Virus record (IMG/VR): IMGVR_UViG_3300023278_002909
Span: 1-41,209 of that record
Length of the DNA: 41,209 nucleotides
Origin: a virus
Direction: 5' to 3' (one strand)
Positions within the stretch are counted from its first letter, which is position 1. Each line of letters starts with the position of its first letter. Position numbers and translations under genes: made by a program. The notes under the pieces were generated by a model. The model saw only the letters and a program-made list of their open reading frames with translations. It searched no databases and was not told the DNA's origin. Below, piece by piece: positions 24,628 to 40,290 of this stretch.

Positions 24628-24644
24628 ACGCCCTCAGTTAGCCG

Positions 24645-24715
24645 CTAATTAGGTGAGATTCGAACTCACATTCCCCAGCATAAAAGCAGCGGTTCTACCA
24701 TTGAATTACTAATTG
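24645..24715 (-). tRNA. tRNA-like gene with mismatched anticodon arm
   Basis: 71 nt with canonical lengths: acceptor arms CAATTAG/CTAATTA (outermost pair C:A mismatched), D arm ATTC-AATGGTA-GAAC, T arm GTGAG-TTCGAAT-CTCAC (perfect). The anticodon stem pairs poorly (GCTGC with CTGGG). By position the anticodon would be UUA (reads the UAA stop); one base shifted, CUUUUAU gives UUU (Lys). CCA is not encoded. It lies in a 110-bp gap between virion genes. It may be a decaying tRNA, an odd functional one or a mimic. Confidence 0.6.
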
Positions 24716-34449: not shown

Positions 34450-34560
34450 CTAATTTGCACACATGCAACTATTTTTTATTTTTAGTTTTTTGATCTTCTG
34501 GAGAAATAAGCTTGACTACCACCTCTGTTTTTTTATTGCCGCTAGTATCCTCATCAAATT
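34450..34560 (-). repeat. 111-bp repeat, copy 1 (terS-like 3' end with operator)
   Basis: Matches 34716-34826 at 109 of 111 positions, offset 266 bp. It contains the palindrome TTGCACACATGCAA (34455-34468) and the C-terminal codons shared by terS and the small gene at 34469. Confidence 0.95.
34455..34468 (-). promoter_or_regulatory. Palindromic operator before 34410 gene
   Basis: TTGCACACATGCAA, one of nine TTGCAYNNATGCAA-like palindromes. Read on the minus strand it precedes the gene starting at 34410. Unlike copy 2, no -10 box is found at 17 bp spacing, so its promoter may be lost after duplication. Confidence 0.5.
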
Positions 34561-34678
34561 GCATTTCTTTTGCCACACGACAAAGCTCTCTCCACTCTTC
34601 CTCTTGTGTCACATCTATGTTCTTATGCACATATTGTCGTATATGTTTGAGCCAAAATTCAAGGTTTCTATTAAACAT
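34469..34678 (-). CDS. Truncated terS paralogue
   Basis: 69 residues; AAAAGGAGATTGAT precedes ATG. The last 29 residues (FDEDTSGNKKTEVVVKLISP and following) are nearly the same as TerS. The middle (EEEWRELCRVAKEMQ) parallels DEEWADLYRAAKEMQ of TerS, then jumps straight to the C-terminus. It thus lacks the residues between, and the N-terminus differs. Could still oligomerise with TerS and modulate packaging. Or a decaying copy. Confidence 0.7.
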   Translation of the reverse strand: MFNRNLEFWLKHIRQYVHKNIDVTQEEEWRELCRVAKEMQFDEDTSGNKKTEVVVKLISPEDQKTKNKK

Positions 34679-34705
34679 ATCAATCTCCTTTTATTAACCG
34701 CCCAT

Positions 34706-34734
34706 ATTAAACCATCTAATTTGCACAGATGCAA
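34706..34734 (-). promoter_or_regulatory. Operator-promoter for terS paralogue
   Basis: On the minus strand TTGCAT (34734-34729, left arm of the palindrome TTGCATCTGTGCAA) is 17 bp before TTTAAT (34711-34706). The predicted start is near 34699, 20 nt before the ATG at 34678. The palindrome covers the -35 box. Confidence 0.5.
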
Positions 34735-34826
34735 CTATTTTTTACTTTTAGTTTTTTGATCTTCTGGAGAAATAAGCTTGACTACCACCTCTGTTTTTTT
34801 ATTGCCGCTAGTATCCTCATCAAATT
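34716..34826 (-). repeat. 111-bp repeat, copy 2 (in terS)
   Basis: The parent copy at the terS 3' end, with palindrome TTGCACAGATGCAA at 34721-34734. Recombination between the copies would delete the paralogue. Confidence 0.95.
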
Positions 34827-35175
34827 TATATTTATGCGGTGCCAACACATTCACACGCCACTTTGCGTATTCTGTCCACTGCTTAATAGCCCCAATAGCC
34901 GTGCTTGGTAGCTCTGAATCAAAAGCAAGCGAAACTAATTTCTTATTAACTACATCCGTATCAGTTGCAATGTTTTCTGCTTGCATTTCTTTTGCCGCGC
35001 GATAAAGATCCGCCCATTCTTCATCTTGTGCAACCCATTTTAAAATAGTAGACAAACGCGGCATTTCTTTTTCTTTTGAAATAGCACGCAATGATTTGCC
35101 TTCAACTATCTTGTTAAGAACCGCATTACGAACTCGTTTAGGATACTTTTTATTATCACCTACTTTTTTTGGCAT
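34735..35175 (-). CDS. terS: Terminase small subunit
   Basis: 146 residues. N-terminal HTH (VLNKIVEGKSLRAISKEKE, RLSTILKWVAQDEEW) followed by helix DLYRAAKEMQAENIA is the small terminase pattern. The middle includes AIKQWTEYAKWRVNVLAPHKY, characteristic of the family. Lys-rich C-terminus. It binds the packaging site and loads TerL. Overlaps the methyltransferase end by 16 bp. Confidence 0.87.
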   Translation of the reverse strand: MPKKVGDNKKYPKRVRNAVLNKIVEGKSLRAISKEKEMPRLSTILKWVAQDEEWADLYRAAKEMQAENIATDTDVVNKKLVSLAFDSELPSTAIGAIKQWTEYAKWRVNVLAPHKYKFDEDTSGNKKTEVVVKLISPEDQKTKSKK

Positions 35176-36422
35176 TTTATCTGTTCCATTTTTTTATTAA
35201 AACTTAAATAAGAGCCCTTGCGAAATATTTTAAAACCTTTTGGCGCACTAAACTGCAAATAGCGATCAATTATCGTATCGCAGTACTCGGGATCTATTTC
35301 AACACAACGCGCTTTCCTCCCGGTGCTTTCACACGCAATTAACGTTGAACCAGAACCCGCAAAAATGTCTAAAACGCAATCACCTTTTTGCGAACTATTT
35401 TTTATTAAGTTAATAAGAAGCGGTACAGGTTTCATGGTTGGGTGTAACTCGCAACTTTGCTCTCTGTCAAAATGCATCGCATTAACTTTTTGATCGCCGC
35501 TTCCATAAAATCTATGAGATTTTTTCCACCCATATAGGATCATCTCCATACGCGATTGATAGTCAAGGCGCGAAAAAGTTTGATTATTCTTAACCCAGCT
35601 GAGCCAATGCTTTGGCGTGAATCCGCTTTCTATCCCGAACACGCGAAAGAGATCTTGCATGGCTGCCGCATCTGCGTGACTAAAAATGTAAAATGAGGCT
35701 GTCTCAGTCAAGCATTTTATAGCTACTTGTACTGCACTCTGTAAAAAGCTGTTTCGTTGCTCTTGTGACATCTTATCATTTTCAATCTCTTTGTGCCTTT
35801 TCGCGCCCTTTTTACCAGGAATATCGTTACTTAATTTATGCACATGCATATAGTCGCAATTATAAGGGGGGTCTGTGATTAATAATTCACAGACCCACGT
35901 ATTCACTTCATCAGGTAAATATCCAACATCCCCGCAGATTAGAACATGATCACCCAAAAAAACGATATCTTCTCTTTGCACAATGGGCGGCATGTCATTT
36001 ACTTCTTCAAAGTTTTCCTCTCTATCTTCATCAAGATAGCTATCGACATTGAGTCCGAAATCGGATAGATCAAAATCGCTTTGTGACAAATCTTCTAACT
36101 CATGAGACAATACTGCATCATCCCAATGCGCCATATCAGATATCTTATTGTCTGCAATGATAAACGCTTTTTTGGCGGTTTCAGATAAAGTTTCAACCTG
36201 AAGGGTGGGTATTTTAACTAAATTAAGCAGTTTCGCAGCTTCTAATCGCGCGTGCCCGGCAATGACCGTAGCATTAACATCTACCAAAACGGGCACTAAA
36301 AACCCGAAGGACGTGATACTATTAGTGAGCGCTTTTAGCTGTTTCTTAGAATGTATGCGTGCATTATGTTCATAAACGTTCAATTCATCAGGTGCGCGGT
36401 ATTCAATTTGTAAATCAGCCAT
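35160..36422 (-). CDS. ParB-domain DNA N6-adenine/N4-cytosine methyltransferase
   Basis: 420 residues; GAGGAGGCTTAA precedes ATG. Residues 1-115: ParB/sulfiredoxin-like nuclease fold (EYRAPDELNVYEHNARIHSK, GFLVPVLVDVNATVIAGHAR). Methyltransferase from about 165: TDPPYNCDYM (motif IV), then PVPLLINLIKNSSQKGDCVLD, DIFAGSGSTLIACE (SAM-binding motif I), ARCVEIDPEYC. Motif IV before I is the beta-class order. It may protect phage DNA against restriction; the ParB domain may help find sites. Next to the Tad1-like gene. Confidence 0.9.
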   Translation of the reverse strand: MADLQIEYRAPDELNVYEHNARIHSKKQLKALTNSITSFGFLVPVLVDVNATVIAGHARLEAAKLLNLVKIPTLQVETLSETAKKAFIIADNKISDMAHWDDAVLSHELEDLSQSDFDLSDFGLNVDSYLDEDREENFEEVNDMPPIVQREDIVFLGDHVLICGDVGYLPDEVNTWVCELLITDPPYNCDYMHVHKLSNDIPGKKGAKRHKEIENDKMSQEQRNSFLQSAVQVAIKCLTETASFYIFSHADAAAMQDLFRVFGIESGFTPKHWLSWVKNNQTFSRLDYQSRMEMILYGWKKSHRFYGSGDQKVNAMHFDREQSCELHPTMKPVPLLINLIKNSSQKGDCVLDIFAGSGSTLIACESTGRKARCVEIDPEYCDTIIDRYLQFSAPKGFKIFRKGSYLSFNKKMEQIKCQKK

Positions 36423-36743
36423 TTAAGCCTCCTCTTTTCCTTCTACGCCACGTTCAACACGATCAGCAGTGCGCTTGTCTAGCCACATAAGCGCCTCTTC
36501 TAATTTAGTTATTGCTATTGCGTTTTCCCTGCAGGGGAACGCCTGCGCTTGGAACGATTTTAAGCGTATAAGGCATACCATCAACAAGTCCTCAATCTGC
36601 GCACCATTATGCCCACACTCAAGGACGGTGCCTGTTTGTACTGGAATTTCAAACATTTGGTCTCCATAAGACAGTAAGTAAAGCAAACTAGGCTCCTCAT
36701 CTGGAAACCTTCTTAAATAAGTACTCATTTTACATTTAGACAT
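36423..36743 (-). CDS. Tad1-like cyclic-nucleotide sponge (anti-Thoeris/CBASS)
   Basis: 106 residues from ATG 36743 (AGAGGTTTTT before it; frame extends to 36821 without a ribosome site). The core VQTGTVLECGHNGAQIEDLL, then RLKSFQAQAFPCRENAIAI and TKLEEALMWLDKRTADRVER with GVEG is the Tad1/Acb2 hairpin-domain pattern. Phe64, Asn74 and Arg91 have the same spacing as the ligand-binding Phe82, Asn92, Arg109 I recall for Tad1. Tad1 traps gcADPR and related signals. First gene of the leftward arm. Confidence 0.8.
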   Translation of the reverse strand: MSKCKMSTYLRRFPDEEPSLLYLLSYGDQMFEIPVQTGTVLECGHNGAQIEDLLMVCLIRLKSFQAQAFPCRENAIAITKLEEALMWLDKRTADRVERGVEGKEEA

Positions 36744-36846
36744 AAAAACCTCTTTTTTCTCTATAATACGCATAAAAAGATTAAAAAGCCATCCGAAAGA
36801 GGTCAAAGCTAACAAGAACACGCACTTTTCCGTAAAGATCAGGATA

Positions 36847-36898: not shown

Positions 36899-36947
36899 TT
36901 GAGGTTGGCTAGCAATTAGCGTATTTAGCCCCTTTGTACATAATTTT

Positions 36948-37506
36948 ACTTGGCACGCGGTTTGCTTTATAGATCATGAGCTTACAGTAAAAGGGGGTCG
37001 AAAATGGCAAAGTCACTTGGCACGCGGTTTGCTTTATAAATCATAAGCTTACAGAATCACTCTTGATAAGTTTTTGATAAGTAAAGAAAAATCACTTGGC
37101 ACGCGGTTTGCTTTAAAAATCAACCAGTTAAAAATTGGTACCAAGTGACGCCAATTCACTTGGCACGCGTTTCCTATTATAAATCAAAAAGTTGCAACTC
37201 GTACCAAGCAAAACCCCCGTTTTCAAAACTCTCTATATACACCTCTATTACATATATTGTATTGCATAGATGCATATTATATTGTATGCAACACCTACCG
37301 TTTTTATATATAACTCTTTATATATTTGCTTGGTATACTTGGTATATAGAGAGTAAAGTAATGATTTATAAAGCAAACCGCGTGCCTATGTCGTCAAGTC
37401 ACTTGGCACAACATTTTCGGTTATCTCGTTGATTTATAAAGCAGACCGCGTGCCAAGCATCATAAACAACTTGGCACGCGGTTTGCTTTATAAATCATGA
37501 ACTTAT
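36948..37506. repeat. Iteron array and A+T-rich core: probable replication origin
   Basis: A repeat with core TTGGCACGCGGTTTGCTTTA plus TAAATCAT occurs directly at 36950, 37017, 37096, 37471 (and degenerate at 37160), inverted at 37369 and 37437, with a half copy at 37403. Between direct and inverted groups is an A+T-rich stretch (37220-37360) with a TTGCATAGATGCAT palindrome at 37262. Such direct plus inverted repeats around an easily melted core are typical iteron origins. No Rep initiator was recognised, so the binding protein is unknown. Confidence 0.7.
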
Positions 37507-37536
37507 GATTTGTTCAAATTCAAAGCGGGATATTTC

Positions 37537-38986: not shown

Positions 38987-39577
38987 ATGAATCACATTAT
39001 ATTCGATTATATTGCACACAATGACACTAAACGTTTGAATGACTTGTTGCAAACCACCACTGAGAGGGGTTTATTGAACATATTTAATGCAGATGGCGCA
39101 ACACCCTTACAAACAGCCATCAAATATGAGTATAAATGCACCGTCCAGTTCCTGCTTAAAAAGGGCGCCGATGTCAATTTCATGGACTGTATCGGCGCTA
39201 ATGCGTTGCATTATGCAGCTCGATGTCAGTTTATCAACGTCATTGAAGAGCTGTTACAAGCGGGTGCCGCGATAACATGTGACCAGCGAAAGAGTAGTCC
39301 ACTACATTATGCAGCGTATCGTAATCACCACCATATCTTAGGGCAGATTTTGTACTCGGAGCGCCATGCATCCTTCCCGCATCTGGATGGTCAAAATTTA
39401 TCTTTAAACACTCCTTTGCATCTGGCGGTTAGAGGTGGTCACTATGAATGCGCCAAAGTTTTAATAAATACAGGAGCTAAATATAATCTGTATAATATCT
39501 GCGGCTTAACTGCTATTGATATTGCAAAATCTTTGAGCGATAAGAGGCTGCTGAAATTGTTTGACGAGGGTGCTTGA
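38987..39577 (+). CDS. Ankyrin-repeat protein
   Basis: 196 residues; CAAGGAAATTTTAT before ATG. About five ankyrin units of roughly 33 residues: DGATPLQTAIKYEYKCTVQF, GANALHYAARCQFINVIEEL, KSSPLHYAAYRNHHHILGQI, NTPLHLAVRGGHYECAKVLI, GLTAIDIAKSLSDKRLL. Ankyrins mediate protein-protein contacts. No signal peptide. The promoter for the next gene lies in its last codons. It may target a host protein; in animal-associated hosts phage ankyrins have been linked to eukaryotic interaction. Confidence 0.88.
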   Translation: MNHIIFDYIAHNDTKRLNDLLQTTTERGLLNIFNADGATPLQTAIKYEYKCTVQFLLKKGADVNFMDCIGANALHYAARCQFINVIEELLQAGAAITCDQRKSSPLHYAAYRNHHHILGQILYSERHASFPHLDGQNLSLNTPLHLAVRGGHYECAKVLINTGAKYNLYNICGLTAIDIAKSLSDKRLLKLFDEGA

Positions 39578-39605: not shown

Positions 39606-39796
39606 AATATATACACCCCCGAAAGATGTTGGAGCATTTAAAAAAAAATAACTGGAGCATGGATAGTGTAGCAAAATATTTAAACGTTAATGTGACAACT
39701 GTTTATCGACAATTTTATCCTAATGCCCCAGAAATGCTGGCTAAAACATATATGAGGTTAAGACAACTGTATTTTAAACATTTAACCAAGGAGTGA
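39596..39796 (+). CDS. Small helix-turn-helix protein, candidate repressor of the palindrome regulon
   Basis: 66 residues. MLEHLKKNNWSMDSVAKYLN followed by VNVTTVYRQF is a helix-turn-helix (recognition helix VTTVYRQF). No ribosome site before 39596, consistent with leaderless translation; ATG 39626 is a second in-frame start. The overlap of promoter, operator and ATG suggests it may repress itself. Dimer binding to TTGCAYNNATGCAA sites is inferred. It lies between the two ankyrin genes. Confidence 0.65.
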   Translation: MNAKYIHPRKMLEHLKKNNWSMDSVAKYLNVNVTTVYRQFYPNAPEMLAKTYMRLRQLYFKHLTKE

Positions 39797-39804
39797 CGTT
39801 TATT

Positions 39805-40290
39805 ATGCGAGCCATAAACATTATAAAAACATTTCAATCAGGTAAATTTTCGTCAATTAGAGCGCTCCTAAAATTGGGGTATGACATTAATCGACCGATA
39901 TCGCGTATCGGGTACCCGTTGTTACACGTTGCACAATTTAAAAGAAACAAAGTACTGAATCTACTACTTCATTTTCGTTGTAATATCTTTGTTACCAATG
40001 AGCGTCACCAAAATATTTTGCATGTTGCATCGATCAATGAAAACACTAAAGGCGCTATTTTATTTCTACGCAATGTGCATAAAACGGACGCATTAAAACT
40101 TCTATCAGCAAAAGACGATCAAGGTCGGACGCCACTTCATTATAGCGTTAAAAATTGTGACTATGCGCTGTCTAAATATTTCATTAAAAACGGAGCATCT
40201 TTGCATACTCTTGACAGTCATGGGCAGTCCCCTAGATTTTATGCGCGGATGAACATGTGCGAACCAGTATTAAGACTATTACAAGATTAA
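39805..40290 (+). CDS. Second ankyrin-repeat protein
   Basis: 161 residues from ATG 39805 (CAAGGAGTGACGTTTATT before it; GTG 39793 in frame). Ankyrin-like units: FSSIRALLKLGYDIN, GYPLLHVAQFKRNKVLNLLL, HQNILHVASINENTKGAILF, GRTPLHYSVKNCDYALSKYF, GQSPRFYARMNMCEPVLRLL. Somewhat degenerate. The Prim-Pol starts 2 bp after it. Confidence 0.85.
   Translation: MRAINIIKTFQSGKFSSIRALLKLGYDINRPISRIGYPLLHVAQFKRNKVLNLLLHFRCNIFVTNERHQNILHVASINENTKGAILFLRNVHKTDALKLLSAKDDQGRTPLHYSVKNCDYALSKYFIKNGASLHTLDSHGQSPRFYARMNMCEPVLRLLQD

Follow-up and report, generated by a model that had tools for sequence, protein, structure and literature searches.

The window analysed here, a stretch of virus DNA of 41,209 nucleotides, carries a gene whose product is, judging from its sequence and its predicted fold, a genuine Tad1 homologue and an ordinary member of this known family. 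The open reading frame (window coordinates 36743 to 36423) starts with ATG, encodes 106 amino acids and is a real gene.

36423..36743, minus strand: tad1 homologue, with a short beta part at about residues 10-35 and a helical hairpin formed by residues 50-65 and 72-97

We consider it probable that the gene encodes a sponge of the Tad1 family, i.e., an oligomer holding the signals of Thoeris, and possibly those of CBASS, so that the effectors stay off. The small beta part and the two-helix hairpin would assemble into the oligomer; the solved Tad1 proteins are hexamers. For Thoeris, the signals bound by such an oligomer would, by analogy with the family, be cyclic ADP-ribose molecules; for CBASS, cyclic dinucleotides and trinucleotides may be bound as well. 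The alarm signals would be held rather than cut, and the host effectors would consequently not be switched on. The gene leaves the general knowledge of phage counter-defence unchanged.

Membership of the Tad1 family

A preliminary description, made from the letters alone, had proposed a Tad1-like protein with a hairpin-domain motif, and sequence, profile and predicted fold all bear this identity out. The hairpin motif is real: Pfam PF24729 (Acb2_Tad1_hairpin) matches residues 50-88 of the window protein at 30.6 bits, where the cut-off is 27 bits. Significant similarity, well above what chance would give, is found to both solved and annotated Tad1 proteins. In a sequence search of the PDB, the window protein matches 8kbb (E=2.6e-19; labelled CmTad1 in the Foldseek table), 7uav (1.6e-13; the Tad1 of a C. 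botulinum prophage, CbTad1) and 8y6v (8e-07), and all significant matches are Tad1 chains or the Tad1 relative gp184. The description had also named a profile search as a test of similarity to Tad1 or Acb2, and such similarity is clearly present: in addition to the Pfam match, the window protein matches phrog_2428 at 1.4e-26, which it has in common with a protein of phage SBSphiJ7 annotated as Tad1, and profile searches reach 7.8e-21 and 4.5e-39. PADLOC and NCBIfam gave no match to the window protein, which is neutral and counts neither for nor against the assignment.

By tblastn, 102 records of annotated phages match the window protein; in the best of them, 54-60% of residues are identical across the final 70-80 positions. 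At least 352 relatives were found by pattern in IMG/VR, and at least 94 in genomes of bacteria and archaea. The similarity runs past the hairpin into a Q-x-G..NG segment and a C-terminal R-x-V-E-G tail.

Membership of the Acb2 family was rejected, as the shared hairpin model PF24729 is the only match. No Acb2 chain is found among the PDB sequence or fold matches of the window protein, so it is assigned to the Tad1 type and not to Acb2. In addition, the window protein differs from Acb2 in having a beta part before the hairpin.

Predicted fold

Two AlphaFold2 models were made, the first from an alignment of 44 relatives and the second from 58 closer relatives. Model 1 has a confident hairpin and a disordered N-terminus, and the top 20 Foldseek matches obtained with it are all Tad1. 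The closer alignment partly resolved this N-terminus: model 2 (pLDDT 78, pTM 0.68) contains strands at residues 20-24 and 30-35 followed by helices at 50-65 and 72-97, although the confidence is only moderate at the front, about 44-55 for residues 1-20. The predicted arrangement is thus that of Tad1, an N-terminal antiparallel beta sheet and then two long helices; the sheet is shorter than in the solved Tad1 proteins and of moderate confidence.

The comparison of a predicted structure with Tad1, proposed earlier as a check, retrieved Tad1 before anything else. Using model 2 against the PDB, all 20 Tad1 chains occupy ranks 1-20 (E from 3e-7 to 3e-5, TM up to 0.71). No other fold is found at a significant E in this search; the next match after Tad1 has E=1.7.

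Signature residues

The F-x9-N-x16-R spacing noted in the preliminary description is present in the hairpin as F64, N74 and R91.

36480..36551, minus strand: conserved signature core (Q-x3-FPCRENAIAITKLEEALMWL) containing N74, codons 65-88

N74 and R91 do not vary in an alignment of 57 relatives, while F64 is Phe in 45 of them and Leu in 10; R95, R98 and G102 are near invariant too. The picture is similar in a larger alignment of 197 sequences, in which the Asn is found in 196 and the Arg in all 197, and the Phe position is Phe in 119 and Leu in 62. The positions of F64, N74 and R91 presumably line the ligand pocket.

An atypical N-terminus

In their beta part, most relatives, as well as the solved and annotated Tad1 proteins, have the motif G-[GN]-A-x-H-x-[YF]. 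This loop is common but not universal, and it is absent from the window protein, whose short, loop-less N-terminal part was not mentioned in the preliminary description.

36672..36692, minus strand: PSLLYLL at the site of the family's G-G-A-x-H-x-Y loop, codons 18-24, with only the Tyr (Y22) kept

The His of the loop is found in 53 of the 57 close relatives and in 156 of 197 sequences in the rougher, wider alignment, and not in the window protein; judged by these alignments, the window protein is in a minority without being the only exception. Since a sizeable minority of the family is without the loop, we count it as a subfamily feature and keep the Tad1 assignment with this exception. The N-terminal third of the protein has little conservation in common with the family: in a leave-one-out comparison with an N-terminal profile the window protein scores 2.4 bits, the lowest of 58 sequences. 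A frameshift as the origin of the odd N-terminus was considered and rejected, as the other two upstream frames contain no family motif.

The same difference appears in comparisons with individual proteins. CbTad1 (Clostridium botulinum prophage; PDB 7uav, 7uaw, 8smd, 8kbe, 8kbf) has, like the window protein, the hairpin with F-x9-N-x16-R, the NG segment and an R-x-V-x-G tail, and the predicted fold reaches a TM of up to 0.71. However, the chains of 7uav and 8kbg have 124-125 residues compared with 106 in the window protein, and GGAYHEY stands where the window protein has PSLLYLL. CmTad1 (PDB 8kbb, 8kbc, 8kbd) and the SBSphiJ7 Tad1, the latter from the same PHROG 2428, are about 54-59% identical to the window protein over the C-terminal 73-80 residues. 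They are longer (132 and 142 residues) and keep an NAPHHF motif that the window protein is without, and their N-termini cannot be aligned to that of the window protein by pairwise search.

With PSLLYLL in place of the GGAxHxY loop, the ligand range of known Tad1 proteins cannot simply be assumed for the window protein. It is conceivable, though on balance we think it unlikely, that the protein is a sponge of the Tad1 fold with a shifted ligand range. One of the two known binding sites would have gone, or changed shape, together with the loop, and only some Tad1 ligands, or another signal, would be held. The replaced motifs of CbTad1 and CmTad1 and the low N-terminal profile score are consistent with such a shift. 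So is the architecture described in a review, where four conserved loops line the pocket for gcADPR and cyclic dinucleotides and cyclic trinucleotides bind apart from it, at trimer interfaces (PMC12043709). However, about one fifth of the wider family, in the rough alignment, is also without the His, so its absence may be tolerated. The natural lack of the G-G-A-x-H-x-Y loop offers a natural experiment on which loop determines whether cyclic ADP-ribose or cyclic oligonucleotides are bound.

Gene, operon and timing

The gene and its same-strand neighbours are arranged as follows; the ribosome-binding site and the -10 box are read from the sequence.

36763..36768, minus strand: candidate -10 box TATTAT, weak, near upstream of tad1
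36749..36753, minus strand: AGAGG, the ribosome-binding site of tad1, 5 bases ahead of its ATG
35160..36422, minus strand: DNA methyltransferase with a ParB-like N-terminus and an N6/N4 methyltransferase domain, its ATG directly after the tad1 TAA
34735..35175, minus strand: small terminase (Sf6-like), overlapping the methyltransferase end by 16 bases

No convincing promoter of tad1 was found by reading the sequence or in the promoter scan: the TATTAT box has no good -35 box in the sequence and is absent from the listing of the scan. A 132-residue version of the protein starting at an upstream GTG was rejected because the ribosome site would then fall within the gene and the added residues are unlike the family.

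As the preliminary description had stated, a methyltransferase adjoins tad1, and it is a genuine one. The two genes are probably co-translated, as stop and start touch and the methyltransferase ribosome site AGGAGG (36428-36433) lies inside the last codons of tad1. The overlap with the small terminase gene probably places the latter in the same operon, and the three genes look like a single operon. No restriction enzyme was identified beside the methyltransferase, and an anti-restriction role for it is only a possibility.

Downstream on the same strand follow the large terminase and then the portal, a Mu-F-like protein, a DUF2213 protein, the major capsid protein, a DUF3383 protein and baseplate J. 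The gene thus stands at the head of the leftward arm, as had been noted earlier, and is the first gene of a packaging and structural arm. The accompanying idea that it is made early does not follow, as the arm that it heads carries packaging and virion genes. Genes of such arms are usually late. From this position, the sponge would probably be produced with the capsid or just before it. Major capsid proteins are recognised by the sensors of some Thoeris systems and trigger these systems (PMC12578639); for blocking them, a sponge from the capsid operon, produced shortly before the capsid itself, would come at a suitable moment.

It can be speculated that several of these features belong together: in a phage that has no near relative among those known, Tad1 may have been reduced to a minimal form by the loss of a conserved loop, which is possibly part of the ligand pocket; it may bind fewer or other immune signals, and it may be produced alongside the capsid proteins or even enter the particle. 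As a whole this combination seems improbable. Packaging in itself, whereby a Tad1 produced late, along with the head proteins, would travel in the particle, be injected and act before phage gene expression, we regard as very unlikely. The place of tad1 as first gene of the terminase-portal-capsid operon would fit it, and there are parallels: phage phiKZ is stated in a review to inject its Tad1 (PMC13282480), and PDB entry 8y6v contains gp184. However, unlike this relative of 230 residues, the 106-residue protein has no extension usable as a packaging signal, and its annotated relatives have varied neighbours, e.g., replication or recombination genes. Finally, a helical-hairpin protein with another role, e.g., in DNA packaging or regulation, and only the hairpin in common with Tad1, would agree with the confinement of the Pfam match to the hairpin, the place beside the terminase genes and the annotation of some relatives as 'putative structural protein', but these annotations carry no shown evidence, and both the sequence similarity beyond the hairpin and the Foldseek result make it highly improbable.

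Two further observations concern this arm. A tRNA-Ile gene with anticodon TAT lies within the virion gene cluster (24644-24715, minus strand). Around the point where the small terminase gene ends lie a 111-bp direct repeat (98% identical) and a 50-bp repeat (82%), within 34450-34826, which produce an open reading frame of 69 amino acids at 34469-34678 that duplicates the C-terminus of the small terminase; the repeats are a recent partial duplication.

Relatives of the phage

The phage has, as far as its sequence can be compared, no close known relative. Its large terminase is at most 35% identical to those of known phages (Acinetobacter and Hafnia phages), the portal at most 31% and the DNA polymerase 28%. 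No relatives of the large terminase were found in IMG/VR, and the capsid protein has one distant relative there (38%). The phage adds a divergent lineage to the carriers of Tad1.

Repeat array and rightward arm

The intergenic region upstream of tad1 may hold more interest than the sponge itself. Six copies of a 28-bp repeat (TTGGCACGCGGTTTGCTTTATAAATCAT), none with more than 3 mismatches, lie there; four of them point rightward and two leftward, and there is in addition a partial fifth rightward copy. Within the window the repeat is confined to this intergenic region (36943-37512), and a 20-base exact search did not find it in IMG/VR. A perfect sigma-54 (-24/-12) core, YTGGCACG-N4-TTGCW, is present in four rightward copies, and the cores of the leftward copies are near-perfect. 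Going by these motifs, the array could be a tandem cluster of sigma-54 promoters, or it could consist of origin iterons that match by chance. Between the leftward copies and tad1 lies a terminator-like hairpin (37166-37138, minus strand).

Behind the array, the rightward arm contains two ankyrin-repeat-like genes on the plus strand, 38987-39577, confirmed by Pfam, and 39793-40290, judged by eye. Such genes are unusual for a phage and may hint at a host living inside eukaryotic cells.
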